Source of the DNA: Aristolochia californica
Taxonomy: Eukaryota > Streptophyta > Magnoliopsida > Piperales > Aristolochiaceae
DNA length: 64,000 nucleotides
Assembly: GCA_029961685.1 (NCBI GenBank)
Contig: JARWKL010000006.1
Coordinates: 10,608,748 to 10,672,747 of the forward strand
Direction: 5' to 3'
Under the pieces are notes generated by a model, which was not told where the DNA came from, searched no databases, and worked only from the letters and a program-made list of their open reading frames with translations. This document shows, in pieces, positions 4,755 to 56,808 of this stretch (within the stretch, counting starts at the first letter, position 1; the number at the start of each line of letters is the position of its first letter). A program made the position numbers and the translations under genes.

Positions 4755-4756
4755 AA

Positions 4757-15144: not shown

Positions 15145-15148
15145 TTTA

Positions 15149-15361
15149 TCAAGCTAATTGGTTTAGCTTTTGTTTAATTCTTTTGATTTTACATCTAAAT
15201 CTGTAGATGCGATCATTATATCCTGCTAAAATGAAATAGTACATTTTCATTGCTAGGATTGAGTCATCTTCAGGTTGAAGCATTTTTTTTAGTAAAAGAA
15301 TCCAGGAAAGGCCATCTCTTTTACTTTGTAAATGATCTAAAAGTTTTTGCCTATAGATCAT
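15149..15361 (-). CDS. Small ORF S1, segment F
   Basis: An intact 70-codon frame, MIYRQKLLDHLQSKRDGL to IKRIKQKLNQLA, one codon shorter than C and D because the stop came early. It is basic, helical and of unknown function. Its ATG overlaps the TGA of the viroplasmin-domain ORF (ATGA) as in C and D. The coat-protein ATG follows its stop closely. Confidence 0.7.
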   Translation of the reverse strand: MIYRQKLLDHLQSKRDGLSWILLLKKMLQPEDDSILAMKMYYFILAGYNDRIYRFRCKIKRIKQKLNQLA

Positions 15362-15526
15362 TTATTTCGGGATGATGTCCAAGCTTGTTTAGCATCTTTC
15401 TATGTCCGGAATTTTCCATGAGAATTTCCAGGGAATCCTATGACTTATGCTTGAGCTTCTTCCCATCTGTCATATATTCCTATTTGTCTTCCAATGAAGA
15501 CATCGTACCAGTACTTTGTACCGGCC
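15358..15526 (-). pseudogene. Viroplasmin/RNase H1-N domain ORF, C-terminal part, segment F
   Basis: On minus this reads KYWYDVFIGRQIGIYDRWEEAQ and ends near SRNK before TGA, aligning with the C and D copies (40236, 51225). It is cut at about 15526 by unrelated DNA and contains internal stops. The aromatic and Gly-Ile-Tyr residues typical of the hybrid-binding fold are mostly kept. Confidence 0.7.
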
Positions 15527-38480: not shown

Positions 38481-38660
38481 TGACGTCACAAGAGGAAAAA
38501 TCATTTCTACCCCTGTTTTCGGTGCCGAAAGGTAATAATGCAAGGGCAAAAATGAAAAGCCAAAAAGACAAAAGTTACCCTTTGTCTTTAAACACACACC
38601 TTTCAATAAAGTGTTAAGGTGGAAGAAATGAAATATCTTCAGCTATAAATTCGACGCGCC
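38481..38660 (+). promoter_or_regulatory. Pararetrovirus promoter, copy C
   Basis: A TGACGTCA bZIP/as-1-like element at the very start, a conserved GGTGCCGAAAGGTAATAATGC block at ~38520 and a TATA box TATAAAT at 38644-38650. The upstream repeat enhancer is missing because the copy is opened here. The same order is seen in D and, inverted, E. It would drive the pregenomic RNA. Confidence 0.7.
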
Positions 38661-39216
38661 TCCAAAGGTTGAGACATTCGGAAAACGGAGAAGCATTAGC
38701 TAATTCGAAAAACCAGCATTCAAGAAGAAGAAGGCGATTTTCGGCGATCTTCCTTCAGCAAGTTCCTTAAAGCACGGTATGTGCTTAATAGCCGTACTGG
38801 CTGAGTAGAATAGAGGGAATCGACTGATGGCACGGTCGGTAACTTCGGGAGTTATGTAGATAAGTAATTTTTCTTTCCCTTTTTTAAGGGTATGTATTTA
38901 GTTGTTTTATTTTGTTTGGACAATTTTTTATATTTTCCGCATGTTTGTAATATTGTGATTCGTATAGTTGTTGTTATCACTGTTCATGTTCCGCATCTAT
39001 ATATACGATCTCCACAGTGTTTGTTTTTACTGTTCCAAAGTTACTATTCAAAAGTTCTATTCCTTTTTACTATTCATGGTTACTATTCATGGTTCTATTC
39101 ATGTTTACTGTTCAAAATAGTGCCAAATAGGACAGAAGCTAGAGACTTGGAATTATTTGGCTACGCTCTGAGGTAGAAAATGAAACGGAGTTGTGCCCTA
39201 CCCTGCTGAAGCAGCC

Positions 39217-39375
39217 ATGGAGCCGCAACGGTTAATAGGAACGGCTTGGGCCCCTCTGGAGACCATGAGGACCGCATTGACGGATTGCCCACGTGGTGGT
39301 AAGCTGGTAGGAATAGGGTCAAACCCCAAAGAAGTTCTAAGTAGCAACATAAGTCATGTTGGGCCTATTAGATAG
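39217..39375 (+). CDS. Leader sORF, copy C
   Basis: A small frame MEPQRLIGTAWAPLETMRTA ending SHVGPIR, 52 codons from its ATG and open for several codons upstream. The same frame stays open in D (50204) and E (minus, 55292) with only substitutions, although neighbouring viral genes are broken. Long caulimovirid leaders usually contain several short ORFs that act in ribosome shunting or reinitiation. Whether this one encodes a useful peptide is unknown. Confidence 0.4.
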   Translation: MEPQRLIGTAWAPLETMRTALTDCPRGGKLVGIGSNPKEVLSSNISHVGPIR

Positions 39376-39717
39376 CTATGAATAAACACAAACGAGTACA
39401 TAGCAGTGACATGTGGCAGGAAGCAGTAGAAATATGATGGTGAAATGATAGGATGTATGAAGTGTGACTGTAGGAACAGTATTGTGTGAGTCATCATTGT
39501 TTTTCGCTGCCTGTAGACAGTGTGTAGGTAGAAATTCCTCGGATTCTAATTCCACTGCCCTCATCCCTAGGTTCACTCTGTCATCCGCTGTTTAGGCTGT
39601 TGAATCTGCTAGAGACTTGTTGTGTGTTTTTATGGTATCTGGCAATAGTGCTTTTGGTACCATAATCCGTTGTGTCTCTATGTTGAAGTCTAGTAGAGAC
39701 TCAGTATGTTTTTAAAT

Positions 39718-39729
39718 TGGAATCAAAGC
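39718..39729 (+). promoter_or_regulatory. Minus-strand primer binding site, copy C (mutated)
   Basis: TGGAATCAAAGC, two changes from TGGTATCAGAGC, which is complementary to the 3' end of plant initiator tRNA-Met. It is followed by CAAGTATTAGACTTGG as in D. Caulimoviridae use this primer to start DNA synthesis. Confidence 0.85.
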
Positions 39730-39919
39730 CAAGTATTAGACTTGGTCCATACAGAGCCATGGAATCAGTTTCCTGGCATTAATGTGTCAAAGAAGTCAAA
39801 GGTTAACTTTACTACTTTCTGTTTAGGTATACATACTCCCAAATAGTTACGACCCAAACCGGTCACATCCCATGTAACATTTGTAAGGAACAAAAGTACA
39901 AACACTTAAAACTTCTTAT

Positions 39920-40246
39920 ATGGAACAAAATAGGTCTAATCCAGCGTTAAGACTTATAAACTATTCGCGATTGCGAGAAGAAATCATGCCCAGAAGGTAT
40001 GATAATCAAATCCAATTCCAGAAGGTCTGGATTTGACAATTAAAAGATCAGCTCTTACTAGTTCAAGCCAAACTCAAAGAGTTAGAAGAAAATCCCTTAG
40101 TTGTAGATTATAACAACGAAGGAAGAAGGATAATCTGAGATGGACGATTATTAGGACTCGGTCCAGTAGGTTTAAAACAAGTTATCAAAGACCTGAAACA
40201 CCAAATCAGGATTGAACAACTTGAACTTCAAGAATATGCTATCTAA
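39920..40246 (+). pseudogene. ORF X (108 codons), copy C
   Basis: It starts at ATG 39920 (MEQNRSNPALR) and ends QLELQEYAI before TAA 40244-40246. In-frame stops are TGA at 40034-40036 and another in the GRRII.DGR region. The protein is charged and helical (QAKLKELEENPLVVDYNNEG in the middle, LKQVIKDLKHQIRIEQLEL at the end) and may form a coiled coil. Its end overlaps the ATG of the viroplasmin-domain ORF (40236) by 11 bases. No family recognised. The internal Met codon at 39957 in D is ATA here. Confidence 0.55.
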
Positions 40247-40544
40247 GCAATTCTTAGAAGATTTGGTAATCATTCTGCAAAGAGAAATCTACAGAATGAC
40301 CCAAGAAGAAACCGTATCTCAACCTGTAGACACCGCTTCAATAGGAGAAGCCTCTACAAGTATATATGGAAAACCAGAAAAAACAAAATACTGGTATGTT
40401 GTCTTCATAGGAAAAGAAACAGGAATATATGACAGCTGGGAAGAAGCCCAAGCACAAGTCATAGGATTTCCTGGAAATTTTCACAGGAAATTTCGGACAA
40501 AGGAAGATGATGAACAAGCATGGACAGTATCTCGAAATAGATGA
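40236..40544 (+). CDS. Stand-alone viroplasmin / RNase H1 N-terminal-like domain ORF, copy C
   Basis: A complete 102-codon frame from ATG 40236. Residues ~50-95 read YWYVVFIGKETGIYDSWEEA, then QVIGFPG and FRTKEDDEQAW, the signature of the caulimovirus viroplasmin domain, which is homologous to the N-terminal hybrid-binding domain of eukaryotic RNase H1. In caulimoviruses this domain is embedded in the ~520-residue transactivator/viroplasmin encoded after polymerase. Here it is a small separate protein encoded before the coat protein. The N-terminal ~45 residues are of unknown fold. The stop overlaps the S1 start (ATGA). Confidence 0.85.
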   Translation: MLSKQFLEDLVIILQREIYRMTQEETVSQPVDTASIGEASTSIYGKPEKTKYWYVVFIGKETGIYDSWEEAQAQVIGFPGNFHRKFRTKEDDEQAWTVSRNR

Positions 40545-40756
40545 TCTATAGGCAAAAAGTTTTAGATCGTTTACAAAGAAAGAGAGATGGCTTTGCCTTC
40601 ACTCTCTTACTAAGCAACATGCTTCAACCTGAAGATGATACAATGTACTCCATGGAAATGTACTATTTCCATTGGGAAAGATATACGAATCGCATCCATA
40701 GACTACAATGCAAGATCGAAAAAATTAAACAAAAGCTAAACCTCTTACCTTTGTAA
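40541..40756 (+). CDS. Small ORF S1, copy C
   Basis: An intact 71-codon frame, MIYRQKVLDRLQRKRDGFAF to IEKIKQKLNLLPL. It is basic and helical with a Met/Tyr/Phe-rich middle (YSMEMYYFHWERY). The ATG lies in ATGA with the preceding stop, and its TAA precedes the coat-protein ATG by two bases. It is conserved in all four copies, so it was a real viral gene. Function unknown. Confidence 0.72.
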   Translation: MIYRQKVLDRLQRKRDGFAFTLLLSNMLQPEDDTMYSMEMYYFHWERYTNRIHRLQCKIEKIKQKLNLLPL

Positions 40757-40758
40757 AA

Positions 40759-42509
40759 ATGGATGATTTATTCTATTTAATGGATATGGAAACTCCATTA
40801 CCATTAGGCCTTCCTGACATCACCGGATGGCTTAAAAACCTAATGTACTTTGCAACACCTTGCATAGCACCTAGAAAAAGGATCCAACAGCACCTACTTT
40901 TAGGATCGCTTCCAAAGCATCATCCTCCACCGATGATGAAGTCTACGCAGAATATAATACTTTCGGTCTCCAACCGATTTATTATGTTCAAGAAGAAAAA
41001 CCTTCTTCAAGTAAACAACAAGGGCAAAGAGATATTGAACTAGAGGCCTGGGAATCTGATGAAGTTGCAGAAGAAAATACCAAGAAAACAGACTACTCTG
41101 CTAAAGACAAAAAGGTAGATGATCTTGGTAAAAGATTTAGAATGCTTCGTGGTAGCAACCATTTTGAAGTCGAAACATCAAGGGTACAAGACACCCACAT
41201 GGAAGATAGCTTTCAAGATAACTTTTGAAATCGTACTGCGATTGACCTGCAAGAACGAGAAAGTTTCTCCAACTCCAAAATATCCCTGGGGGGACCAAGG
41301 TGTTCAACAAAATACACAAATGTCGATCCTTCAAATACTACTATGGGATACCAACCCATAGATAGCATAAACCCTTTTGGATTTTATCTCAACTTGGATT
41401 GCCCCAAGGAGGGAGAAAAGGTCTTTAAAGAATGGGAAACAAGCATGAGCTATGCTGCAAATATGCATGAATCTTGGGACAAAGATTCAGCATTTAATTT
41501 CTTTACCCATTCTTTAAAGGGTAATGTAGCTCATTGGTGGGACAACCTTCCCGAAGACCAAAAACGAGCTAATACCTCAATATCTATAGCCAATATATTG
41601 AAAGGAGTGGTGGCTAAGATATCAAAGGAATTTCTAGGAACACATCCAACCCTAGAAGATTATAGTGAAAGTACTAAACAACGAAAACGTTTAGAAACTC
41701 TTCAAAAATTGAATAAGTTACAAAACTGTAACATCTGTTTTTTTGAGAAGTATTGTTGTGAATTTGCAAGTTACTTCTATAAACTGCAAAAAGACGATCA
41801 GAAACCTTATCTGTATATCTTTTATGCAAAATTGCCAGAACCTTTTACACATGTAGCTGAAAAAGACTACATTACAAAATATTGGCAAAATAATCCAGAA
41901 CTTGGTACTTTAACCATGGATAATTTCCGAAACTTTGACACTTTAGGAAGAAGACATAGATTTGTAGTAGACATGTTGGCAAATCTTTGAGAAGCCCAAA
42001 AACTACAAAAGAAAACTAGTAAGGAAAATAAACAAACATTATGTTGTTCAAACCAGAACAAAAATGTGGGAGCTTATGGTTGTAAAACCACCTACCATAA
42101 GCAACGAAAATATCCTAAGAAATTTCAACAGAAAAAATTTAGGATACAAAAAAGTTCTACAACTACGTATACTCCTAAGAAGAGATACTTTAGAAAAAGA
42201 ATAAATTCTGGTCCTACCACATCCAGTAAAGGGTCAAATGCATATTGCCCAAAGGGGAAAACCCCAAGCAAATGCAAATGCTGGATATGCCAGAAAGAAG
42301 GACATTTTGCAAAAGATTATCCGAATGATAAACAACAACGGAGGTACAGTACCTATATGTTACTAGCTAAAGAAAATTGATTGGAAATTATCCATTATGA
42401 TGACATCCAGTCAGAAGATGAATTATATGAACTTCATCTAGAAACTGAATCCTCATCCTCGAAAAACTCAGAGAACAAGTCGGACTCTTCAGCCACCTTC
42501 TCTGAATGA
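40759..42509 (+). pseudogene. Coat protein, copy C
   Basis: It starts MDDLFYLMDMETPLPLG and ends at TGA 42507-42509. A one-base indel at the AAAAAGG run (~40880) moves the frame. Later parts read INPFGFYLNLDCPKEGEKVF, GNVAHWWDNLPEDQK, LGRRHRFVVDMLANL, then a stop, a Lys/Arg-rich region and the knuckle CWICQKEGHFAKDY with the last Cys changed to Tyr. An acidic tail follows. It packages the viral genome; the knuckle is inactivated here. The stop overlaps the polymerase ATG at 42506. Confidence 0.88.
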
Positions 42510-44476
42510 GTATCCGCATAAACGCAGAGCATGTAGCATCTGGAAATTATTATATCACGGTCATGCTTAAATTATCCGAATATATCAAATTCCATATACA
42601 CGCTCTCATAGATACAAAAAGTTCATATAGCCTAGCCAGACAAAATCTACTTCCCACGGATCTAAGGAAAGCACTTGAAGTACCCCTTCAAGTAACAGTT
42701 GGCTCAGGAAAAAATGTATCTCTTCCTGTAGAACCCCGAAACATTCATCTCGACATTGGGGGTGAAAATTTTATGATCTCAAAACTCATTAGTTTATGAC
42801 CAAACATAAACTCAGGACCAGATTTAGTCCTAGGAAATGAATGGCTCATGTTTCATGCTCTTGTAGAGCAAACACCAGCCTACTATAAACTTTGATGTCA
42901 CACTCGATGCGAAATCAATAATTCTGCTGTATTTGTCTATGAAGTAAAACCCACTGAAGCCTATGCCATTTCTGGTAATGGAGATGTTCTCCATCAGGTC
43001 TTCAAAAAACGCAACAAGCGTGGTGATGAGATTCCTCCCTTAGAAACTCTACTCCTCGCTGAATCCTGCGAAACTGAAGTTCAACAAGTTCAGCAACTTC
43101 TAGAATCCACTTGTTCTGAGAAACCCTTAGAATGGTGGCATAAACAAAAATCATATGCCGACCTTAGACTTCTTGATCCTGAAAAAGAAATTCAAAAAAA
43201 CCTATGGTTTACACTCCTTCTGATGTTGAAGAATTCTCAACACAAATAAATGACTTGCTAACTCAAGGTTTAATCCGTGCAAGTTATTCTCCACATACAT
43301 CTCCTGCTTTCTTGGTTCGGAATCATGCAGATATAAAATGTGGGAAAGCTAGAATGGTCATTAACTATAAAAGGGTTAATGAAGCCACAAATATGGATGG
43401 CTACTATCTTCCTAACAAAGAAAGATTAATAGCTGCCTTAAGAGGAAAACAATGGTTTTCTAAATTTGATTGCAAATCCGGGTTTTGGCAAATTCGTCTA
43501 ACCGAACGAGTTATTCCCCTTACTGCATTCATTTGTCCTTCAGGACATTATGAGGGTTTGTAATGCCCTTTGGGTTAAAACAAGCACCCAACATATTTCA
43601 AAGAAGAATGGATTATATCCTCAAATCATTCTTTAAATTTTGCTTAGTTTATGTTGATGACATCCTAGTCTTTTTAGAAACCAAGGATCAACATAAAGAG
43701 CAATTACGTAAGGTATTAAATGCCTTAAAAAATGTTGGGATAGCACTCAGCAAAAAGTAATCAGAGTTATTTAAAACCAAGATAGATTTCTTAGGTCTAA
43801 ACATCTCAAAAGGAGAAATCATTCTCCAAAATCATATTCTAGAAAAACTAGCAACTTTTCCAAATGAAATTGAAGATATAAAACAGCTTCAACGTTTCTT
43901 AGGATGCCTAACATATGCTGAACAATTCATAAAGAATTTATCAGAAATTAGGAAACCCTTTCAAAAGAAACTAAAGAAAGACGTCAAATGGGAATGGACA
44001 CCCACTGATAGTTTAGAAGTAATCCGGATCAAACAAATGATGAAAACCTCCCAGTGTTAACTCTACTAGATCCAGATGCAAAAATGATTTTAGAAACTGA
44101 CGCCTCGGATCATACTTGGGCAGCAGTCCTAAAATGCAAAATAAATGGTTCTGAAAGAATATGAAAATATACATCAGGAACATTTTCATCCGCTAAAACA
44201 AACTGTCATTCTTATGAAAAAAAAATTTTAGCAGTAAAAAATGGGATAAAAAAGTATATTTATCTTGCTCCCAAAAAATTTCTGGAAAGAACTGACTGTA
44301 AAAATTTTGTCGGTTTTATGACAAGAAATTTAGAAGATTCACTTTGTCGCGGTAGATTACTCCGTTGGTAGCAATGGTTCTTCCAATTTTGTTTTACTGT
44401 TGAACACATAAAAGGAGATAAAAATTATTTACCTGATACTCTTACTAGAGAATTTTCTTGTGTTCCAAACAGGTAA
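42506..44476 (+). pseudogene. Protease-reverse transcriptase-RNase H, copy C
   Basis: The ~656-codon polymerase gene starts MSIRINAEHVASG. The protease active site is altered to IDTKSSYS (DTG in D). RT carries HTSPAFLVRN, CKSGFWQIRLTERVI, FGLKQAPNIFQRRMD and VYVDDILVFLETKDQ with the YVDD motif intact. RNase H has LETDASDHTWAAVLK and RTDCKNFVGFM, ending FSCVPNR before TAA 44474-44476. Frameshifts lie near 43200, 43560 and 44045, and stops elsewhere. The next gene starts one base after its stop. Confidence 0.9.
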
Positions 44477-44477
44477 A

Positions 44478-45953
44478 ATGGATCCCCTCAGTAGTACCTT
44501 GACGGACCTAGCAGCAACAATTGCCACACTCAAGGTATTGCTCTCAACCCAACAGTCACTATTCGACAGTCTTTTAGTTCTCTCTGAACGAGGAGACATA
44601 CAGCAGAATTGTGCCTGTTACGGGTTAAGTGGAGAAGTCTTACAACTCAAGGTTAAGGAATTAACTGAAGAGTTAAAAGAACTCACCAAACAGCATGAAA
44701 TGCCAAGCTCCTCTGAGACTTCTACCGGATCTCCATCGCAAGAAAAGGAAGCCACAACGTCAGGTAATTAGCAAACGGATGACTTTAGTGCTTTGATAAA
44801 CACAAGTGGACCCGGGATTTCTACTGGTCATGCCAGGCATGAAAACGAAATCACAACCCAGTCTTTTTTGAAGATAGGGGAATCAGGGATTTCTACTTGC
44901 CAGTCTAGAGCTGGAAAGGAAACCTTAACGATTTCGATGAAATCGGAATCAAGGACTTCTACCTGTTAGTCTCGAGCTGAAAAGGAAGTCTTAACGGATC
45001 CATCCCTGATGGAAACGGACTTGTCTAGTAATGAGAAATCATTCAAGACAAAATTGGTTACCCCGTCTGAGTTTACAAGGTTGAAAAGCCTAAATAAACC
45101 AGATAAAACAAGTTTTACTGAGTTAGATTTTTTAAAGAAATTTAAACCTTTAAAACTTTCGGATATTATGTCTGAGGAACACTCTCTACACCCTCAAAAG
45201 GTGGACATCGTTCGTTCAAAGATCGAATCCAATCATACTGTTCAATTCCAAAGATGGAATGAACAAATTGGACAAGTGATGAACACTCCCTTTTTCACCA
45301 CTGAGTCCAGCAACAGTTGGAATCAAGTGAAGCTGAGTCATGAAATAGACTCAAAATATGCATCCATGCTTTATTCATATGGATTCATAAAATAGATGGT
45401 ACTTCACTCTACCGACTTATCAGTTTTGGAGAAAATGCCAAAAGAGATTATGGAGGCTTGCAAAACTTTCATCTCCATAACAAAGAGTAAAGGAATTCGA
45501 CTTCATTTTGTTTCCTGTATTGCTGAAATTGTAACTGACACAAAGATATTTCCGAGCATTTCTGTCGTGACACTTAAAGGCATCAAAGAAGGTGACGCGA
45601 AGATGGAATATGATCCCAAACATATTCCAAAAGCCAAGCCTTGCCCAGAAGCATTATGGCCAACCAGGCGTATTCACAGGCTCAAGAACATGATACAACT
45701 CATACAACAACTGATTTAGAAAAAGAAAAGCTTTGTCTACAAGACCTCTGTCTCACTGACGATCGTCTCGAAAAGCTATAAAGAGACTCTGGCACTTGTC
45801 CAGACCAGTCTCAAAGCAACACTGAAGAAATTCCTCAGAGGAAATATCCCCTTCAGCAAAGCAACCAAGGAAATTTTCTGCAAGATGGCCCAGAAGACTT
45901 TTCCAAAGGAGCATACCTGTAGATTGTGCACAGAAAGGCAGTTGTCCGAATGA
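44478..45953 (+). pseudogene. ORF P (~490 codons), copy C
   Basis: The gene directly after polymerase, the place of the transactivator gene in caulimoviruses. It starts MDPLSSTLTDLAATIATLK (ATG 44478) and ends CTERQLSE before TGA 45951-45953. Three parts are visible: an N-terminal ~90 residues with heptads (LQLKVKELTEELKEL), a Ser/Thr-rich middle with repeated GISTCQSRAGKE-like units (residues ~110-170), and a C-terminal ~300-residue part (VTPSEFTRLKSLNKPDK, TDLSVLEKMPKEIMEA, IRLHFVSCIAEIVTDTK) ending in a basic tail with a CXXC. Stops at 44769, 44967 and 45393 and a frameshift near 45700 break it. I do not recognise the family. Confidence 0.8.
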
Positions 45954-46123
45954 GCAGTCAGTAGCCATGTCGGTAGACAAGTCAGCAGCCATTAAGGCCC
46001 AAGACGAAATCAAAGTCAGCAAAGGCGGCTATAAAAGTCCACAACGGCGGCTACAAAATTCATCAAAGGTGGCTACACAAAGTCATCAATAGTGGCTCAA
46101 AAGATTCTTGCACGTCAGCATCA
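45954..46123 (+). promoter_or_regulatory. Enhancer-like repeats, end of copy C
   Basis: Four imperfect copies of a ~24-bp unit around AAAGGCGGCTACA (about 46015, 46040, 46063 and 46088) followed by CACGTCAGCATCA with an ACGT/TGACG bZIP site. In a circular genome this lies directly upstream of the TATA box at 38644. Promoter-proximal repeats with bZIP sites are typical of pararetroviral promoters. Confidence 0.65.
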
Positions 46124-47823
46124 AACTCATTAGTTTGGGACCAAACATAAACTCAGGACCAGATTTAGTCCTAGGAAATGAATGGCTCATGTTTCATGCT
46201 CCTGTAGAGCAAACACCAGCCTACTATAAACTTCGATGTTTCACTCGACGCGAAGTCGATAATTCTGCTGTATTTGTCTATGCAGTAAAACCCACTGAAG
46301 CCTATGCCATTTCTGGTAATGGAGATATTCTCCATCAGGTCTTCAAAAAATACAGCAAGCATGGTGATGAGATTTCTCCCTTAGAAACTCTACTTCTCGC
46401 TGAATCCTACGAAACTGAAGTTGAGTAAGTTCAACAACTTCTAGAATCCACTTGTTCTGAGAAACCCTTAGAATGATGGCATAAACAAAAACCATATGCC
46501 AACCTCGAACTTCTTGATCCTAAAAAAGAAATTCGAGAAAAACCTATGGTTTACACTCCTTCTGATGTTGAAGAATTCTCAACATAGATAAATGACTTGC
46601 TAACTCAAGGTTCAATCCGTGCAAGTTATTCTCCACATACATCTCCTACTTTCCTAGTTCGGAATCATGTAGAGATAAAACGTGGAAAAGCTAGAATGGT
46701 CATTAACTATAAAAGGGTTAATGAAGCCACAAAAATGGATGGCTACTATCTTCCTAACAAAGAAAGATTAATAACTATCATAAGAGGAGAACAATGGTTT
46801 TCTAAATTTGATTGCAAATCTGGGTCTTGCCAAATTCATCTAACCGAAAGAGCTATTCCCCTTACTGCATTCAGTTGTCCTTTAGGACATTATGAGCATC
46901 TTGTAATGCCCTTCGGGTTAAAACAAGCACCCAACATATTTCAAAGAAGAATGGATGATATCCTCAAACCATTCTTTAAATTTTGCTTAGTTTATGTTGA
47001 TGACATCCTAGTCTTTTCAGAAACCAAGGATCAACATAAAGAGCAATTAATTAAGGTATTAAATACCTTAAAAAATGCTGGGATAGCACTCAGCAAAAAG
47101 AAATCATAGTTGTTTAAAACCAAGATAGATTTCTTAGGTCTAAACATCTCAAAAGGAGAAATCATTCTCCAAAATCATATTTTGGAAAAACTAGCAGCTT
47201 TTTCGAATGAAATTGAAGATATAAAACAGCTTCAACGTTTCTTAGGATGCCTAACATATGCTGAACAATTCATAAAGAATTTAGCAGAAATTAGGAAACC
47301 CTTTCAAAAGAAACTAAAGAAAGACGTCAAATGGGAATGGACACCCACTGATAGTCTAGAAGTAATCCGGATCAAACAAATGATGAAACACCTCCTAGTG
47401 TTAACTCTACCAGATCCAAATGCAAAACTGATTTTAGAAACTGATGCCTCAGATCATACTTGGGCAGCAGTCCTAAAATGCAAAATCAATGATTCTGAAA
47501 GAATATGCAAATATACATTTGGAACATTTTCATCTGCTGAAACAAACTAACATTCTTATGAAAAAGAAATTTTAGCAGTAAAAAATGGGATTAAAAAGTT
47601 TTATATTTATCTTGTTCCCAAAGAATTTCTGGTAAGAACTCACTGTAAAAATTTTGTCGATTTTATGACAAGAAATTTAGAAGATTCAATTTAGCACGGT
47701 AGATTACTCCGTTGGCAGCAATGGTTCTTCCAATTCTCTTTTACTATTGAACACATAAAAGGAGATAAAAATTATTTACCTAATACTCTAACTAGAGAAT
47801 TTTCTTGTGTTCCAAACAGGTAA
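46121..47823 (+). pseudogene. Protease C-terminus, reverse transcriptase and RNase H, copy D (3' part of gene)
   Basis: One reading frame is kept for the whole 1.7 kb and is interrupted only by nonsense codons (about 46426, 46474, 46585, 47107, 47548 and 47692), with no frameshift. It shows LGNEWLMFHAPVEQ (protease end), SPHTSPTFLVRN, VINYKRVNEATKMDGYYLP, FGLKQAPNIFQRRMDDILKP, VYVDDILVFSE (catalytic YVDD) and RNase H LETDASDHTWAAVLK. Comparison with C indicates CAA to TAA and TGG to TGA changes at some stops. The 5' 250 bases of this gene are at 53495-53742. Confidence 0.9.
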
Positions 47824-47824
47824 A

Positions 47825-49299
47825 ATGGATCCCCTCAGCCGCACCTTGACGGACCTAGCAGCAGCAATTGCCACACTCACGGTATTGCTCTCAACCCTAC
47901 AGTCACTATTCGACAGTCTTTTAGTTCTCTTTGAACGAGGAGACATACAGCAGAATTGTGCCCGTTACAGGTTAAGTGGAGAAGTCTTACAAGTCAAGGT
48001 TAAGGAATTATTCGAAGAGTTAAAAGAACTCACCAAACAGCATGAAATGCCAAGCTCCTCCAGGACTTCTACCGGATCTCCATCGCGAGAAAAGGAAGCC
48101 ACAACGTCAACTAATTATCACATGGATGACTTTAGTGTTTTGATAAACACAAGTCGACCCGGGATTTCTACCGGTCATGCTAGGCATGAGAAGGAAATTA
48201 CAACCCAGTCTTCTTTGAAGATAGGGGAATCAGGGATTTCTACTTTCCAGTCTAGAGCTGGAAAGGAAACCTTAACGATTTCGATGAAATCGGAATCAGG
48301 GACTTCTACCTTTTAGTCTCGAACTGAAAAGAAAGTCTTAACAGATCCATCCCTGATGGAAACGGACTTGTCTAGTAATGAGAAATCAGTCAAGACAAAA
48401 TTGGTTACCCCGTCTGAGTTTACAAGGTTGAAAAACCTAAATAAACCAGATAAAAAAAGTTTTAATGAGTTTGAGTTTTTAAAGAAATTTAAACCTTTAA
48501 AACTTTCAGACATTATGTCTGAGGAACCTTGCTATGCTCTCAAAAGGTGGACAACTCTCACTCAAACATCGAATCCGATCATACTGTTCAATTCCAGAGA
48601 TTGAATGAACAAATTGGACAAGGGATGAACACTCCCTTTTTCACCATTGAGTCCAGCAACAATTGGAATCAAGTGAAGCTGAGTCATGAAATAGACTCAA
48701 AATATGCATCCATGCTTTATTCATATGGATTCATAAAACAGATGGTACTTCACTCCACCGACTTATCAGTTTTGGAGAAAATGCCAAAAGAGATTATGGA
48801 GGCTTGCAAAAGTTTCATCTCCATAACAAAGAGTAAAGGAATTTGACTTCATGTCATTTCCTGCATTGCTAAAATTGTTACTAACACAAAGATGTTTCCG
48901 AGCTTTTCTGTCGTGACACTTGAAGGCATCAAAGAAGGTGACGCGAAGATGGAATATGATCCCAGATATGTTCCAAAAGCCAAGCCTTGCCCAGAAGCAT
49001 TCTAGCCAACGAGGCGTATTCACGGGCTCAAGAACCTGATACAGCTCATACAACAGCTTATTCAGAAAAAGAAAAGCTTGGTCTACAAGACCCCCGTCCC
49101 ACTGATGATCGTCTCGAAAAGCTATAAAGAGACTTTGGCACCTGTCCAGACCTGTATCAAAGCAACGCTGAAGAAATTACTCTGAGGAAATATCCCCTTC
49201 AGAAAAGCAACCAAGGAAAGCTTCTGCTAGATGGCCCAGAATAATTTTCCAAAGGAGCAGACCTGTAGATTGTGCACAGAAAGGCAGCTGTCCGAATGA
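47825..49299 (+). pseudogene. ORF P, copy D
   Basis: It starts MDPLSRTLTDLAAAIATLT and ends RQLSE before TGA 49297-49299, the same length as in C. The first 235 codons are in one frame with a single TAG (48314), so the repeat part belongs to the same protein as both ends. A frameshift near 48530 and stops at ~48844 and ~49003 break the C-terminal part. The coiled-coil N-terminus (VKVKELFEELKEL), repeat middle and VTPSEFTRLKNLNKPDK block are clear. Confidence 0.82.
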
Positions 49300-49660
49300 G
49301 TAGTCAGTAGCCATGTTAGCAAACAAGTCAGCAACCATTAAGGCCCAAGACAAAATCAAATTCATCAAAGGCGGCTATAAAAGTCCGCAATGACGGCTAC
49401 AAAAGTCATCAAAGGCGGCTACACAAAGTAGACAATGGTGGCTCAAAAGATTCCTACACGTGAGCATCATGATGTCACAAGAGGAAAAGTCATTTCTACC
49501 CCTGCTTTCGGTGCCGAAAGGTAATAATGCAAGGGCAAAAATGAAAAGCCAAAAAGACAAAAGTTACCCTTTGTCTTTAAACACACACCTTTCAATAAAG
49601 GGTAAAGGCGGAAGAAATGAAAGATCTTCAGCTATAAATTTGACGCTCCTCCAGAGGTTG
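49300..49660 (+). promoter_or_regulatory. Enhancer-like repeats and promoter, copy D
   Basis: The complete promoter region. Four ~24-bp repeats around AAGGCGGCTACA (49360-49450) come first, then CACGTGAGCATCATGATGTCAC (G-box and TGATG/bZIP-like sites, 49458-49480), the TAATAATGCAAGGGC block and TATA box TATAAAT at 49633. Transcription of the pregenomic RNA should start about 30 bases later, some 1,040 bases before the primer site. Confidence 0.72.
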
Positions 49661-50203
49661 AGACATTCGAAAAACAGAGAAACATTAGCTAATTAGAAAA
49701 CCAGCATTCAAGAAGAAGAAGGCGATTTCTGGCGATCTTCCTCCGGCAAGTTCCTTAAAGCACGGTATGTGCTTAACAGCCGTAATGGCTGAGTAGAAAA
49801 GAGGGAACCGACCGGTGGCACGGTCTGTAATTTTGGGAGTTATGTAGATAAGTAGTTTTTCTTTCCCTTTTTTAAGGGTATGTATTTAGTTGTTTTATTT
49901 TGTTTGAAAAATGTTTTTATATTTTCTACTTGTTTGTAATATTGTGATTCGTATAGTTGTTGTTATCACTTTTTATGTTCCGCATCTATATATATGATTT
50001 CCATAGTGTTTGTTTTTACTGTTCCAAAGTTACTATTCAAAACTACTGTTCATTTTTACTATTCATGTTTACTGTTCACTCGTCAAAAAGAAATAGTATC
50101 AAAATAGTGCCAAATAGAACAGAAGCTAGAGACTTGGAATTTTTGGGCTACACTCCGAGGTAGAAAACGAAACGGAGTTGTGCTCTACCTTGCTGAAGGA
50201 GCC

Positions 50204-50362
50204 ATGAAGCCGCAACGGTTAATAGGAACGGCTTGGGACCCTTTGGAGACCATGAGGACCGCATTGATGGATTGCCCACGTGGTGGTAAGCCGGCAGGAA
50301 TAGGGTCAAACCCCGAAGAAGTTCTAAGTAGCAGCAGAAGTCATGTTGGGCCTATTAGATAG
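50204..50362 (+). CDS. Leader sORF, copy D
   Basis: MKPQRLIGTAWDPLETMRTA to SHVGPIR, 52 codons. It differs from the C and E versions by a handful of substitutions without frameshift. It sits about 340 bases upstream of the primer site. Role unproven. Confidence 0.4.
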   Translation: MKPQRLIGTAWDPLETMRTALMDCPRGGKPAGIGSNPEEVLSSSRSHVGPIR

Positions 50363-50704
50363 CTATGAAATAAACACAAACGAGTACATAGCAGTGACAT
50401 GTGGTAGAAAGTAGGAGTAATATGATGGTGAAATGATAGGATGTATGAAGTGTGACTGTAGGAATAGTATTGTGTGAGTCATCGTTGTTTTCTGCTGCCT
50501 GTAGACAATGTGTAGGTAGAAATCCCTAGGATTATATTTTTGTTGCCCTCATCCCTAGGTTCACTCTGTCATACGTTGTTTAAGCTGTTTGGTCTGTCAG
50601 AGACTCGTTGTGTGTTTTTTATGGTATCTGGCAATAGTGCTTTCGGTACCATAATCCGCTGTGTCTGTGTTGAAGTCTAGTAGAGACTCGGTATGTTTTT
50701 AAAT

Positions 50705-50716
50705 TGGTATCAGAGC
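50705..50716 (+). promoter_or_regulatory. Minus-strand primer binding site, copy D
   Basis: TGGTATCAGAGC is an exact complement of the 3' end of plant initiator tRNA-Met, followed by CAAGTATTAGACTTGG. It is the only fully intact primer site of the viral copies here and sets the conventional map origin of the virus. Confidence 0.93.
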
Positions 50717-50908
50717 CAAGTATTAGACTTGGTCCATACAGAGCCATGGAATCAGTTTCCTAGAATTAATATGTGTCAAAGAAGTCAAAGCTTAACTTTA
50801 CTTCTTTCTATATAAGTATACAAACTCCCAAATAGTTACGACCCAAATCGGTCACATCCAATGTAACATTTGTAAGGAACAAATGTACAAAAATATAAAA
50901 CTTCCTAT

Positions 50909-51235
50909 ATGAAACAAAATAGGTCTAATCCAGCGATAATACTTATGAACTATTCGCGATTGCGAGAACAAATCATGCCCAGAAGATATGATAATCAAAT
51001 CGAATTCCAGAAGGTTTGGATTTGACAATTAAAAGATCGGTTCTTACGAGTTCAAGCCAAACTCAAAGATTTAGAAGAAAATCCCTTAGTTGTAGATTAT
51101 AACAACGAAGGAAGAAGGATAATCCAAGATGGACGATTCTTAGGACTTGGTCGAGTAGGATTAAAACAAGTTATCAAAGACCTGAAACACCAAATCAGGA
51201 TTGAACAACTTGAACTTCAAGAATATGCTATCTAA
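50909..51235 (+). pseudogene. ORF X, copy D
   Basis: It runs from ATG 50909 (MKQNRSNPAIILMNYSRLRE) to TAA 51233-51235, 108 codons. A single in-frame TGA at 51023-51025 interrupts it, at exactly the codon that is TGA in copy C. It is charged and helical with a likely coiled-coil C-terminus. It follows the leader directly, where B and E carry ORF 1 instead. Unknown function. Confidence 0.58.
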
Positions 51236-51533
51236 GCAATTCTTAGAAGAATTGGTAGATATTCTGCAAAGAGAGATCTACAGAATGACCCAAGAAGAAA
51301 CCGTATCTCAACCTGTAAACACCGCTTCTATAGGAGAAGCCTCTACAAGTATATATGGAAAACCAGAAAAAACAAAATACTGGTATGTTGTCTTCATAGG
51401 AAGAGAAACAGGAATATATAACAGTTGGGAAGAAGCCCAAGCACAAGTCATAGGATTTCCTGGAAATTCTCACAGGAAATTCCAGACAAAGGAAGATGTT
51501 GAACAAGCATGGATAGCATCTCGAAATAGATGA
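51225..51533 (+). CDS. Stand-alone viroplasmin / RNase H1 N-terminal-like domain ORF, copy D
   Basis: An intact 102-codon frame. The N-terminal part reads MLSKQFLEELVDILQREIY and a Ser/Thr-rich linker follows. The domain YVVFIGRETGIYNSWEEA and QVIGFPG ends with FQTKEDVEQAW. It aligns with the caulimovirus viroplasmin/RNase H1 hybrid-binding domain (conserved Y, F, G-I-Y, W, V-x-G-F and K-F-x-T). It overlaps ORF X at its start and S1 at its stop (ATGA). A role in binding RNA or RNA-DNA hybrid is the family expectation. Confidence 0.86.
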   Translation: MLSKQFLEELVDILQREIYRMTQEETVSQPVNTASIGEASTSIYGKPEKTKYWYVVFIGRETGIYNSWEEAQAQVIGFPGNSHRKFQTKEDVEQAWIASRNR

Positions 51534-51745
51534 TCTATAGGCAAAAAATTTTAGATCGTTTACAAAGAAAGAGAGATGGCCTTGCCTTCACTCTCTTACT
51601 AAGAAACATGCTTCAACCTAAAGATGATGCAATCTACTCCATGGAAATGTACTATTTCCATTGGGAAAGATATACGAATCACATCCATAGACTACGATGC
51701 AAGAATGAAAAAATTAAACAAAAGCTAAACCTCTTAGCTTTGTAA
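51530..51745 (+). CDS. Small ORF S1, copy D
   Basis: An intact 71-codon frame MIYRQKILDRLQRKRDGLAF to NEKIKQKLNLLAL. It is nearly identical to the C copy and keeps both tight junctions (ATGA with the upstream stop, two bases to the coat-protein ATG). Unknown function. Confidence 0.72.
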   Translation: MIYRQKILDRLQRKRDGLAFTLLLRNMLQPKDDAIYSMEMYYFHWERYTNHIHRLRCKNEKIKQKLNLLAL

Positions 51746-51747
51746 AA

Positions 51748-53498
51748 ATGGATGAGTTTTTTTATTTAATGGATATGGAAACTCTATTACCAATAGGCCT
51801 TCCTGACATCACCGGATGGCTTAAAAACCTAGTGTACTTTGTAACACCTTGCATAGCACCTAGAAAAAAGGATCCAGCCCCACCTACTTTTAGGATCGCT
51901 TCCAAAGCATCATCCTCCACTGATGATGAAGTTTACGCAGAATATAATACTTTTGGTCTCCAACCGATTTATTATGTTCAAGAAGAAAAACCTTCTTCAA
52001 GTACACAACAACAGCAACAAGACAGTGAACCAGCGGCTTGGGAATCTGATGAAGTTGCAGAAGAAAATACCAAGAAAATAGACTACTTTGCTAAAGACAA
52101 AAAGGCAGATGATCTTGGTAAAAGATTTAGAATGCTTCGTGGTAGCAACCATTTTGAAGCAGAAACATCAAGGGTTCAAGACACCCACATGGAAGATAAC
52201 TTTCAAGATAACTTCCGAAACCGTACTGCGGTTGACCCACAAGAACGAGAAAGTTTCTCCCACTCCAAAATATCCCTGGGAGGACAAAGGTATTCGAAAA
52301 AATACACAAATGTCGATCCTTCAAGTGCTACTAAGGGACACCAACCCATAGATAGCATAAACCCTTTTGGATTTTATCTCAACTTGGATTGCCCCAAGGA
52401 GGGAGAAAAGGTCTTTAAAGAATGGGAAAGAAGCATGAGCAATGCTGCAAATATGCATGAATCTTGGGACAAAGATTCAACATTTAATTTCTTTACCCAT
52501 GCTTTACAGGGTAATGTAGCTCATTGGTGGGACAACCTTCCCGAAGACCAAAAATGAGCTAATACCTCAATATCTATAGCCAATATCTTGAAAGGAGTGG
52601 TGGCTAAGATATCAAAGGAATTTCTAGGAATACATCCAACCCTAGAAGCTTATAATGAAAGTACTGAACAACGAAAACGTTTAGAAACTCTTCAAAAATT
52701 GAACAAGTTACAAATCTGTAACATCTATTTTTATGAGAAGTATTATTGCGAATTTGCAAGTTACTTCTATAAACTGCAAGAAAAAAATCAGAAACCTTAT
52801 CTGTCTATCTTTTATGCAAAATTGCTAGAACCTTTTGCACATGTAGCTGAAAAAGACTACATTACAAAATATTGGAAAAATAATCCAGAACTTGGTACTT
52901 TAACCATGGATAATTTCCTAAACTCTGACACTTTAGGAAGAAGACATAGATTTGTACAAGACATGTTGGCAAATCTTTGTGAAGCCAAAAAACTACAAAA
53001 GAAAAGTAGTAAGGCAAATAAAAAAACATTATGCTGTTCAAACCAGAACAAAAATGTAGGAGCTTATGGTTGTAAAATCACCTCCCATAAGCAACGAAAA
53101 TATCCTAAGAAATTTCAACAGAAAAAATTTAGGTTACAAAAAAGTTCTACAACTAGGTATACTCCTAAGAAGAGATACTTTAAAAAAAGAACAAATTCTA
53201 GCCCTACCACATCAAGTAAAGGTCAAATGCATATTGCCCAAAGGGGAAAACCCCAAGCAAATGCAAATGCTGGATATGCCAAAAAGAAGGACATTTTGAA
53301 AAAGATTGTCCAAATGATAAACAACAACGGCGGTACAGTACTTATATGTTACTAGCCGAAGAAAATGGATTGGAAATCATCCATTATGATGACATTCAGT
53401 CAGAAGATGAAGTATATGAACTTCATCTAGAAAATGAGTCCTCCTCCTCGAAAAACTCAGAGAACATGTCGGACTCTTCAGGCACCTTCTCTGAATGA
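51748..53498 (+). pseudogene. Coat protein, copy D (one stop, one late frameshift)
   Basis: The best-preserved coat gene, ~583 codons. Residues 1-40 read MDEFFYLMDMETLLPIGLPD, 80-115 are acidic and Gln-rich (QQQQQDSEPAAWESDEVAEE), and ~205-270 hold INPFGFYLNLDCPKEGE and GNVAHWWDNLPEDQK. TGA 52555-52557 then interrupts, and the same frame continues with FLGIHPTLEAYNESTEQ, LGRRHRFVQDMLANLCEAKK and a Lys-rich tail. A one-base loss near 53220 shifts the frame before the CCHC knuckle. The acidic end has IIHYDDI. It overlaps polymerase by ATGA. Confidence 0.9.
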
Positions 53499-53742
53499 GT
53501 ATCCGCATAAACGCAGAGCATGTAGCATCTGGAAATTCTTATATCACAGTCATGCTTAAACTACCCGGATATATCAAATTCCATATACACGCTCTCGTAG
53601 ATACAGGAAGTTCATATTGCCCAGCCAGACAAAATCTACTTCCCACGGATCTATGGAAAGCACTTGAAGTACCCCTTCAAGTAACATTTGGCTCAGGAGA
53701 AAATATATCTCTTCCTGCAGAAGCCCGAAACATTCATCTCGA
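53495..53742 (+). pseudogene. Protease N-terminal part, copy D (5' part of polymerase gene)
   Basis: Starts MSIRINAEHVASG and keeps the aspartic protease active site HALVDTGSSYC with DTG intact. It is cut after EARNIHLD at 53742 and joined to an inverted movement-protein fragment. It is the missing 5' end of the polymerase gene at 46121-47823. Confidence 0.88.
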
Positions 53743-53933
53743 CTGGATACCAATTTCTTTTGGAACTCAATCCAATCTTTGTTGTAGACTTCAATTATCC
53801 TAGGGATACTTATTTTCCCTTTTTGTCCACCATGCATAAGATTAGGATGTTCATCATATCCTCCCTGTGTTTCATGATGTACATGAACACTGTTTCGACG
53901 AGAAGTACATTCTATTCTTATTTGTTCAGACAT
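53743..53933 (-). pseudogene. Movement protein N-terminus, segment E
   Basis: It starts MSEQIRIECTSRRNSVHVHH at ATG 53933 and runs to IEFQKKLVSS before the junction with copy D protease. It has no stop here, unlike B, where this stretch has several. The ATG overlaps the stop of ORF 1 (ATGTCTGA). The diagnostic 30K motifs lie further on and are missing, so identity is by match to segment B. Confidence 0.7.
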
Positions 53934-54607
53934 TTAGGATTTTTAGATGAGTTGAGGTCTCTTCTAATTTTTGGAACAAGATTTCGATAAGTCATTCCAA
54001 TTGATACAAAGTGATGAAAGGAGAGATGTGTTGTATAACTAGTTCTCTCAATTCTTCATTTTGAGTTATAGCACAGATGTCTCGTATAAGATGATCTCTA
54101 TCTATTCCTTGATGAGATTTTACGGTAGTTATTTTTCAAATAACTTCCTGTAATTCTTTTTTACATGGTTTGTTGTTAACCATTTTAATTTTCGCTTGTC
54201 GGATAGGTTCTAAGATCCTAGAAGGATTTATTTCTAGATCTACATAGCTTTGTAGATCTGTAAGGAAACGTACTGTTTCTTCAGTATTTCCTGTTTTAAG
54301 TACCTCAAGATGGGCATTAATTCTTCTCTTGAGTTTCTGTACTTGTTCATTGACATCACTCTCTATTCCTACGCATAGGAAAGCAATGTTTTCTGCGGTG
54401 TATTTTTCCCAACATCTTTTCTTAAAGAAGCTGTGATGCATATCACCAACTAAATCCATTATATTATTTAATATTGGATTATTCTTATCATGCCATCCAT
54501 GTGGATAGCCTATTATTGGACAAACATTTGTGTGTCCAGTTTTCAACACGGTGTCATAAGAAGGACCGTTGAGTTCCTTCTGACCTACTAGTTGGGGTCT
54601 TTGGTAT
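53926..54607 (-). pseudogene. ORF 1, segment E
   Basis: It matches ORF 1 of B throughout: YQRPQLVGQKELNGPSYD, TGHTNVCPIIGYPHGWHDK, NPILNNIMDLVGDMHHSFF, AHLEVLKTGNTEETVRFLTD. It is open from at least 54549 to 54136, then shifted. The upstream in-frame part has no ATG in this copy (the B start codon position is ATA). Function unknown. Confidence 0.62.
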
Positions 54608-54779
54608 ATTAGTACATTTGTAGTATACCAATGGTACAGATGTGACCGGTTTGGGTCATAATTGTTTGGGAGTTTATATACCTAACAGAAAGAAGTAAAG
54701 TTAAGCTTTAACTTCTTTGACACATATTAATGCCAGGAAACTGTTTCCATTGCTCTGTATGGACCAAGTCTAATACTTG

Positions 54780-54791
54780 GCTTTGATACCA
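54780..54791 (-). promoter_or_regulatory. Minus-strand primer binding site, segment E
   Basis: On minus TGGTATCAAAGC, one change from the initiator tRNA-Met complement, again followed by CAAGTATTAGACTTGG. It shows that the movement-protein genome type uses the same primer site as C and D. Confidence 0.88.
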
Positions 54792-55133
54792 ATTTAAAAA
54801 CATAAAGTCTCTACTAGACTTCAACACAGACACACAGTGGATTATGGTAACGAAAGCACTATTGCCAGATACCATAAAAAACACACAATGAGTCTCTAGC
54901 AGACTGAACAGCCAAAACTGCTGATGACAGAGTGAACCTAGAGATGAGGGCAACGAAACTACAATCCTAGGGATTTCTACCTACACACTGTCTACAGGCA
55001 GCGGAAAACAATGATGACTCACAAAATACTATTCCTATAGTCAGACTTCATACATCCTATCATTTCACCATCATATTACTCCTGCTTCCTATCACATGTC
55101 ACTACTATGTACTCGTTTGTGTCTATTTCATAG

Positions 55134-55292
55134 CTATCTAATAGGCCCAATATGACTTTTGCTACTACTTAGAACTTCTTCGGGGTTTGACCCTATTCCT
55201 GCCAGCTTACCACCACGTGGGCAATCCGTCAATGCAGTCCTCACGGTCTCTAGAGGGCCCCAAGCCGTTCCAATTAACCGTTGCGGCTCCAT
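55134..55292 (-). CDS. Leader sORF, segment E
   Basis: MEPQRLIGTAWGPLETVRTA to SHIGPIR, 52 codons, open as in C and D. This is the third copy without frameshift. Confidence 0.4.
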   Translation of the reverse strand: MEPQRLIGTAWGPLETVRTALTDCPRGGKLAGIGSNPEEVLSSSKSHIGPIR

Positions 55293-56167
55293 GGCTACTT
55301 CAGCAGGGTGGAGCACAACTCCATTTCGTTTTCTACCTCGGAGCGTAGCCGAATAATTCCAAGTCTAAAGCTTCTGTCCTATTTGGCACTATTTCAATAC
55401 TATTTCTTTTTGACGAGTGAACAGTAAACATGAATAGTAACATGAATAGTAAAAAAGGAACAGTACTTTGAATAGTAACTTTGGAACGGTAAAAACAAAC
55501 ACTGTGAATATCATATATATAGATGCGGAACATGAACAGTGATAACAACAACTGTACGAATCACAATATTACAAATATGCAGAAAATATAAAAACAATGT
55601 TTAAACAAAATAAAACAACTAAATACTTACCCTTAAAAAAGGGAAAGAAAAACTACTTATCTTTATATAACTCCCGAAGTTACCAACCGTGCCACCGGTC
55701 AGTTCCCTCTTTTCTACTCAGCCATTTTGGCTGTTAAGCACATACCATGCTTTAAGGAACTTGCCGGAGGAAGATCGTCGGAAATCGTCTTCTTCTTCTT
55801 GAATGTTGGTTTTCGAATTAGGTAATGCTTCTCCTTTTTTCGAATGTCTCAACCTCTGGAGGAGCGTCGAATTTATAGCTGAAGATCTTTCATTTCTTCC
55901 ACCTGTACCCTTAATTGAAATGTGTGTGTTTAAAGACAAAGGGTAAATTTTGTCTTTTTAGCTTTTCATTTTTTTCCCTTGCATTATTACCATTCGGCAC
56001 CAAAAGCAAGGGTAGAAATGACTTTTCCTCTTGTGACGGCATGACACTGACATGCAAGAATCTTTTGAGCCACCATTGTTGACTTTGTGTAGCCGCCTTT
56101 GATGACTTTGATTTCATCTTGGGCCTAAATGGCTGTTGCCTTGTCTGCTGACATGGCTGCTGACCGC

Positions 56168-56808
56168 TCATTTGGATAGCTGCCTTTCTGTGCACAATCT
56201 ACAGGTGTCGGAGTCTCTTTATAGTTTTGGAGACGATCGTCAGTGGGATGGAGGTCTTGTAGAAAAAGCTTTTCTTTTTCTGAATCAGATGTTGTATGAG
56301 CTGTATCAGGTTCTTGAGAACGTGAATACGCCTGGTTGGCCAAACTGCTTCTGGGCAAGGTTTGGCTTTTGGAACATGTCTGGGATCTTATTCCATCTTC
56401 GCGTCACCTTCTTTGATTCCTTCAAGTGTCACGACAGAAATGCTTGGAAACATCTTTGTGTCAGTAACAATTTCAGCAATATAGGAAATGAAATGAAGTC
56501 GAATTCCTTTACTCTTTGTTATGGAGATGAAACTTTTGCAAGCCTCCATAATCTCTTTTGGTATTTTCTCCAAAACTGATAAGTCGGTGGAGTGAAGTAC
56601 CATCTTTTTTATGAATCCATATGAATAAAGCATGGATGAATATTTTGAGTCTATCTCATGACTCAGCTTCACTTGGTTCCAACTGTTGCTAGACTCAGTG
56701 GTGAAAAAGGGAGTGTTCATCCCTTGTCCAATTTGTTCATTCCATCTATGGAATTGAACAGTATGATCGGACTCAATCTTTGAACGAACGTTGTCCACCT
56801 TTTGTGGG
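56168..56808 (-). pseudogene. ORF P C-terminal half, segment E (internal deletion)
   Basis: The minus frame from 56798 reads VDNVRSKIESDHTVQFHRWN, TTESSNSWNQVKLSHEID, YGFIKKMVLHSTDLSVLEKI and IRLHFISYIAEIVTDTKMF. Near 56215 about 110 bases before the final CRLCTERQLS are lost. The stop is at 56168. The N-terminal half is cut off at the satellite junction. Confidence 0.8.

Follow-up and report, generated by a model that had tools for sequence, protein, structure and literature searches.

Caulimovirid copies in the window

The subject of this work is a group of integrated caulimovirid sequences in a 64-kb window of the Aristolochia californica genome (contig JARWKL010000006.1, positions 10,608,748 to 10,672,747 of the forward strand). 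The window is the whole stretch of 64,000 nt that was analysed, and coordinates below are positions in it. Copies were delimited by self-BLAST of the window and by reading of their junctions, which yielded five copies (A to E) and one fragment. They belong to two classes that both carry coat protein (CP) and ORF P; one class contains polymerase (Pol), the other a presumed movement protein (MP).

Copy C (38481..46121, plus strand; 7,641 bp) is a whole turn of the Pol-class circle, its two ends being adjacent on the circle. Copy D (46122..53743, plus strand; 7,622 bp) is likewise a whole turn, opened inside Pol with loss of about 27 bp. C and D are 92.8-93% identical and circularly permuted; they are separately opened circles with the same join of leader and ORF X. 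Copy E (53753..56812, minus strand) is a truncated MP-class copy comprising part of ORF P, control region, leader, ORF1 and the MP start; it is fused directly to D (junction 53743-53753). Copy B (2119..9381, plus strand) is a near-complete turn of the MP-class circle with a linker in place of Pol. Copy A (9751..15519, minus strand) is a 5'-truncated Pol-class copy that retains the 3' part of the CVI open reading frame (ORF), S1, CP, Pol, ORF P and the start of the control region. The remaining fragment of ORF P (1625..2102, minus strand) is fused to B and is 90.5% identical to it over 263 columns. C, D and E constitute lineage II, A and B together with the fragment lineage I, and each lineage contains both classes.

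Pol-class genes are arranged in the order control region, leader, ORF X, CVI, S1, CP, Pol and ORF P on a circle of 7.64 kb; in C and D, no MP intervenes between the leader and CP. ORF X, found in this class only, has 108 codons with one in-frame stop in D (50909..51235, plus strand; 39920-40246 in C). The CVI ORF (51225..51533, plus strand; 40236-40544 in C) encodes 102 aa with a C-terminal Cauli_VI domain (Pfam PF01693, E 3.8e-15 in D and 1.2e-13 in C). S1 of D (51530..51745, plus strand; 71 aa) corresponds to 40541-40756 in C, about 15361-15149 (minus strand) in A and 4539-4754 in B. The CP ORF of D (51748..53498, plus strand) is broken. The coat protein has a zf-CCHC zinc knuckle above the Pfam cut-off (5.8e-5), and the two matches of the coat-protein Pfam domain (9.6e-5 and 1.1e-3) are both below the cut-off of that domain. 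Pol begins with the protease (53495..53743, plus strand), overlapping the CP stop by ATGA, and the remaining Pol of D is located at about 46122-47822. Its Pfam domains are Peptidase_A3 (4.7e-8), RVT_1 (1.1e-29) and RT_RNaseH_2 (1.1e-11); the best PDB relative of the reverse transcriptase (RT) piece (46588..47109, plus strand) is the cauliflower mosaic virus RT (8r0s, 7.2e-58). A structure model of an RT piece had a mean pLDDT of 33 and was not used. ORF P (47825..49395 in D, end approximate, plus strand) has no function assigned, and Pfam detected no Cauli_VI domain in the pieces tried. No relatives came to light in scans of viral contigs or in a search of a phage collection.

Codon 39 of ORF X reads TGA-CAA-TTA in both C and D (positions 40034 and 51023), which resembles a leaky stop; a context of this type follows 29 of the 3679 stop triplets in the window. 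Readthrough was dropped as an explanation, since most of the 17 ORF X pieces compared, C itself (L008) and D (L001) included, have no stop there.

The MP class is ordered control region, leader, ORF1, MP, VAP, S1, S2, CP, linker of ~175 nt and ORF P. ORF1, specific for this class, encodes 227 aa in B (2208..2891, plus strand) and lies at about 54612-53922 (minus strand) in E. The next ORF of B (2884..3600, plus strand) is broken, and only its start is present in E (53933-53753, minus strand); its position and a motif fit a 30K movement protein, and we treat it as the candidate MP. A fold model of an MP piece (mean pLDDT 37) was too poor to be used. The VAP-like ORF of B (4146..4542, plus strand) is broken as well, has no Pfam match at or above cut-off, and its stop overlaps the S1 start. 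S2 (4757..4958, plus strand) is a paralogue of S1 (0-8 of 2000 shuffles match as well). Further, neither ORF X nor the CVI ORF is present in B, and its Pol is reduced to about 86 nt from the 5' end of the gene and 45 nt from the 3' end. Overlaps of a few bases are observed between ORF1 and MP, VAP and S1, ORF X and CVI, CVI and S1 (in A, C and D) and CP and Pol. Comparison of the window copies showed no relics of the other class's genes at class-specific joins. Between MP and VAP, B also contains a TRIM/SMART-like miniature element (3766-4105), in which a ~80-nt sequence occurs as two direct repeats and a minus-strand Met-tRNA primer site lies at 4021-4010.

The control region of D (49469..50704, plus strand) corresponds to about 38481-39717 in C, about 56109-54792 (minus strand) in E and about 8366-9381 in B. 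Identities over 844-866 columns are 92.5% for C-D, 91.7% for C-E and 92.1% for D-E, ranging from 80 to 98% in 45-nt windows; the corresponding values for the ORF P part are 92.6%, 92.8% and 92.4%. E carries the MP set of genes, yet in both regions it is as close to C and D as these are to each other, which supports the existence of two components. B is 81-82% identical to C, D and E in the control region and 84-86% in the ORF P part. The leader (50705..50908 in D, plus strand) starts with a Met-tRNA primer binding site, located at the same place in D (50705..50716, plus strand; exact 12-mer), C (39718-39729, two mismatches) and E (54791-54780, minus strand, one mismatch). The number of primer sites in the whole window is not beyond chance (8 of 100 shuffles reach 6 matches), and folding of the leader is weak (z -0.8 to -1.8). 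Leaders of D and E are 87% identical, the resemblance being lost over the ~65 nt that immediately precede the first start codon. In B, ~85 nt is all that is left of the leader, and the primer site is missing.

Most of what a first-pass annotation had read from the window alone is thus borne out. This concerns C and D as full ~7.64-kb turns with CP, Pol, viroplasmin domain and ORF P and without MP (agreed by self-BLAST, junctions and domains), and B as devoid of ORF X, viroplasmin ORF and nearly all Pol and endowed with an additional S2. E was correctly credited with the same control region (about 92%), the primer site, ORF1 and the MP start, its leader being similar rather than the same. ORF1, the MP-like ORF and the VAP-like ORF of B stand; the claim that B has the same leader does not.

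Gene classes in the host genome

The host assembly (659.6 Mb) was surveyed using the viral genes of the window as queries. The best 40 of 450 candidates for MP represent the window and 39 other places, viewed as 20 loci of about 10 kb (one of which, L016, holds two places) and as 18 segments of 1 kb each, placed where CP should end. Twenty-seven of the 39 places are readable past CP; 23 of them continue into the linker without Pol and four into Pol. In the ~10-kb loci, all 15 readable cases (L009, L011, L012, L014-L017, L019-L022 and L025-L028) have the linker and no Pol at the join. In one of these loci, L025, the unit stops within ORF P, where a separate piece of the Pol class is attached. 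Six further places are cut before the CP join (L010, L013, L018, L023, L024 and the second place in L016). The 1-kb segments contain the linker in eight cases (L042, L044, L045, L046, L050, L051, L052 and L054) and Pol on the MP strand in four (L041, L043, L048 and L053), six being unreadable.

The best 40 of 324 candidates for CVI are C, D and 38 other places. Among those fetched, 21 of 24 are readable (L060, L061 and L065 are not), and Pol follows CP in 18 of the 21. Multiple Pol-class copies are likewise evident from the RT query (best 40 of 563 candidates). On the upstream side, ORF X precedes CVI in all 17 pieces with more than 90% coverage, two of which are C and D, and MP genes were found upstream of CVI in none of the 17; pieces of lower coverage, including the truncated CVI of fusion loci L071 and L072 (see below), which in L071 follows VAP, were left out. 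In 21 of the 24 MP pieces ORF1 lies ahead of MP, whilst three show neither gene, and no ORF X or CVI occurs within 400 nt downstream of MP in any of the 24, a count that likewise does not cover the truncated CVI of the fusion loci. The circle of the MP class can be sized from L011, a head-to-tail tandem with a period of 7,676 bp measured by ORF1 and 7,677 bp measured by MP.

In place of Pol, B contains a linker (6645..6802, plus strand) composed of ~86 nt of decayed Pol start and ~60 nt that cannot be aligned to the Pol end. The ~175-nt linkers that connect CP with ORF P in B and in 17 other loci (15 of the MP class, two of the CVI class) are homologous to each other and represent both main lineages. 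Changes private to B occupy 30 of 86 columns in the Pol start and 38 of 663 in CP (Fisher p 3e-13). In view of the decayed Pol start and the identical junction at other loci, we rejected a loss of Pol from B after integration, although the unaccelerated 3' Pol remnant (see below) speaks against early decay. The homologous linker and the decayed Pol start suggest that loss of Pol from the MP class probably predates both integration and the separation of the lineages; exchange of the linker from one lineage to the other would alter this conclusion. Origin of the second half of the linker from the Pol 3' end is unsupported (154-417 of 1000 shuffles are as good).

The division into two lineages is visible in several parts of the genome. 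In trees of CP1, CP2 and P2, starred branches set A, B and L009 apart from all other copies. At the start of the control region, A is nearer to B than to C and D (88-89 versus 78-84% in three segments); in the preceding segment, which covers the end of ORF P, A is 75% identical to B versus 82% to C and D. Synonymous divergence between lineages is about 0.3-0.6 in CP, ORF1 and part 2 of ORF P. The corresponding ratio of nonsynonymous to synonymous divergence (dN/dS) is 0.24 for ORF1, 0.24-0.26 for RT and 0.28-0.32 for part of CVI, and it amounts to 0.20-0.51 in 14 of 15 CP comparisons. Between C and D, dN/dS is 0.56-1.42 in eight of 11 pieces and 0.16, 0.28 and 2.32 in the others. It is thus reasonable to conclude that most divergence between the lineages arose under constraint and that much of the C-D divergence arose after integration.

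CP trees were constructed from 13 Pol-class and 19 MP-class rows (CP1) and from 10 and 18 such rows (CP2), each row being assigned by the nearest upstream class gene. Hereafter, component A denotes the Pol circle and component B the MP circle; hybrid locus L029 was counted as B and hybrid L034 as A. The classes are interleaved, with seven label changes in CP1 and four in CP2, at least three of which are forced by starred branches in each tree. This mixing indicates that the components recombined. Compound insertions holding both components are represented by D/E in the window and by L017, where an MP-class unit is followed head to tail by a Pol-class unit; CP1 pieces of these two units are mutual nearest neighbours (support 88).

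Two-component reading and its alternatives

Two classes, fixed junctions, circle sizes, a common control region and exchange of CP are directly seen. From comparison of these sequences we consider it probable that the copies are what is left of integrated genomes of a caulimovirid divided between two DNA circles that hardly differed in size (7.64 and about 7.68 kb). The components would have complemented each other in trans and been packaged separately. Each circle would be transcribed from the common control region into one polycistronic RNA. The polymerase of component A would copy both RNAs and MP of component B would spread both, CP and ORF P being supplied by either. Template switching during reverse transcription might keep the common parts alike and sometimes yield hybrids. 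As to direction of evolution, we infer a one-piece virus of the order ORF1-MP-VAP-S1-S2-CP-Pol, from which component B would have arisen by loss of Pol and component A by replacement of ORF1-MP-VAP (and S2) with ORF X-CVI. The first-pass annotation had offered two different deletions from one ~9-kb ancestor as an alternative to its two-component reading; the former probably describes the origin and the latter the later virus.

Several observations weigh against the two-component reading. Each query was represented by its best 40 or 41 of 324-566 candidates, and rarer classes may be missed; in the case of CVI, 24 of 38 places were fetched and 14 left out. The copies are not all independent: L009 and L010 duplicate the B locus and look like segmental duplicates, and L012/L014 as well as L020/L027/L028 look like duplicates by their flanking arrangement. 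The 3' remnant of Pol in B shows no acceleration, as 39 of its 45 positions agree with C and 37 with D. Constraint is weak in S1 (dN/dS 0.34-0.60) and in the first part of ORF P (0.51-0.71), and dN/dS of CP1 between A and B reaches 0.77. MP gave no Pfam match with the two pieces tried, the E piece extending partly past E, and its first 59 codons show no third-position bias (4/8/7). Finally, some loci mix the classes: the linker without Pol follows CP in three of the 21 readable CVI places, and Pol lies downstream on the MP strand in four of the 27 readable MP places.

The three CVI places (L029, L034 and L069) have the CVI set joined to the Pol-less half. Among the four MP places, L053/L071 and L043/L072 have one common in-frame junction, in which VAP residues 1-82 are fused to CVI residues 54-102 at a short microhomology; the fusion is followed by S1, CP and Pol. 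In L071 (153-536) the fusion ORF is open and encodes 127 aa with the VAP part and the Cauli_VI domain. Both loci are located on contig C1 and may represent one event that was duplicated. L048/L074 contains MP-class VAP, S1 and S2, after which CP jumps into the RT region without protease, an irregular join. L041/L073 (contig C500, about 35.496-35.506 Mb) belongs to a third lineage, 70-89% identical to all others in the pieces compared. Downstream of MP, an in-register series runs from VAP, S1 and S2 through the CP end and the protease to the RT start, ORF P, ORF1 and mid-CP lying outside the reading. The distance from S2 start to CP end is about 1.94 kb, versus 1.95 kb in L011, and its S1 is 78-81% identical to MP-class S1 versus 72-76% to CVI-class S1. 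We read this locus as a one-piece virus resembling the presumed parent or, alternatively, as a product of homologous recombination. Sorting of the host copies by gene content, the check suggested in the first-pass annotation, gave two discrete classes with fixed junctions among the best matches, apart from the three CVI places with the linker and the four MP places with Pol, two of the latter with the VAP:CVI fusion. A contiguous genome with every gene in one unit, named beforehand as the finding that would refute two components, was not seen among the best 40 matches per query, and the two-component reading is supported to that extent.

L041/L073 is also an argument for a one-piece helper virus of ~9 kb that did all the work, the 7.6-kb classes being defective genomes that were often packaged and integrated. 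This locus has the in-register succession from VAP to the first part of RT downstream of MP, and the hybrids testify to repeated recombination. We nevertheless regard this explanation as unlikely. In lineage II, the MP places with Pol, out of 27 readable, comprise only the VAP:CVI fusion (two loci) and the protease-less join (one locus). Both classes are old, as their linker is homologous and their genes are constrained in two lineages. Moreover, the CVI class possesses ORF X and CVI, whereas L073 has nothing between VAP and S1.

Abundance of the Pol class, repeated among the best RT matches with its own CP, Pol and ORF P, would also agree with a self-sufficient, vertically inherited Pol component that needs no movement, the MP class being its defective by-product. 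However, the MP class is repeated as well (best 40 of 450), its ORF1 is constrained and its CP is interleaved with Pol-class CP in the trees, which makes this scenario very improbable. Least credible is that Pol or MP was lost only after integration by chromosomal decay, or that the classes are an assembly error. Many copies are indeed broken and often rearranged, but identical junctions are found at many places on different contigs, the Pol-less class forms a 7.68-kb tandem, and C and D are whole circles that were opened separately and have the same leader-ORF X join.

Relation to other caulimovirids

One-piece viruses of the caulimovirus/soymovirus type have MP, a VAP-like ORF, small ORFs, CP, Pol and the last ORF in tight succession. 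The virus described here resembles such separate-ORF caulimovirids in this gene succession and in its RT, which is nearest in PDB to that of cauliflower mosaic virus. It differs from them in the distribution of genes over two circles and in that its Cauli_VI domain is encoded by a small ORF preceding CP. Features characteristic of Caulimoviridae are present, namely RT/RNase H with Peptidase_A3, a Met-tRNA primer site at the leader start and a CP zinc knuckle.

Divided genomes are not known from living caulimovirids and have been proposed for endogenous florendoviruses only, according to Geering et al. 2014 (PMC4241990). Bipartite florendoviruses include VvinBV, VvinDV, OsatBV and others (PMC4241990; VvinDV from PMC9719215), and VvinAV is regarded as a potential one-piece parental form (PMC10377300). 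The florendovirus precedent invoked by the first-pass annotation is therefore real, although the virus found here has separate ORFs instead of the florendovirus polyprotein. The two systems have in common a component B with MP and CP, without RT and with a last ORF homologous to that of component A, intergenic regions more than 90% identical, compound insertions of A and B, and a candidate one-piece parent. Unlike the florendovirus ORF1, described there as a polyprotein of MP, CP, aspartic protease, RT and RNase H, here MP, VAP, S1, CP and Pol are separate ORFs; MP, VAP, S1 and CP have their own starts, and CP and Pol of D overlap by ATGA. Further, the Pol component here has no MP, and a stand-alone Cauli_VI ORF together with ORF X occurs on the Pol component only. 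Both circles are near 7.65 kb, compared with 5.5-6.9 kb reported for florendovirus components.

Of the features by which Geering et al. 2014 recognized components of one virus, gene sets that complement each other, overlap in part and keep their structure across many copies, intergenic identity above 90% (C-E and D-E) and compound insertions are all found here. A common MP domain of more than 87% identity is absent, as C and D have no MP; conspecificity of the components consequently rests on control region, CP and ORF P.

The bipartite layout itself is already known from florendoviruses; what sets the present virus apart are its separate ORFs and, in its two main classes, the complete separation of MP and Pol. 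The literature searched, which comprised no subscription papers, yielded no further case of a bipartite caulimovirid beyond the florendoviruses. In the passages of PMC5766536 covered, bipartite genomes are mentioned for florendoviruses only, and the main text of PMC13308828 does not contain the word. On balance we slightly favour the view that a bipartite virus arose independently of florendoviruses in a separate-ORF caulimovirid, the Pol circle having gained ORF X and a stand-alone Cauli_VI ORF, and that the host keeps a candidate parent (L041/L073), both daughters and recombinants rejoining them in both ways. If true, this second case, in which genes are separate and labour is divided more cleanly, would show that reverse-transcribing viruses have split their genomes repeatedly. 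One host offers hundreds of first-look candidates, among which forms resembling the parent, divided forms and recombinants coexist, so that the step from one component to two could be tested directly by phylogeny and dating.

Surroundings of the copies contain other repeats. Arrays of a ~667-bp satellite lie on both sides of the C-D-E block (20561-38480 and 56904-63688), and pieces of Ty3-type gag and aspartic protease flank the A-B region (533-1543, minus strand; 19683-20132, plus strand). A 57-bp tandem repeat of 2.8 copies is located at 18143-18305. On the window's own contig, similar viral copies are clustered near 7.7, 8.0, 9.5-9.6, 10.6 and 15.1 Mb.

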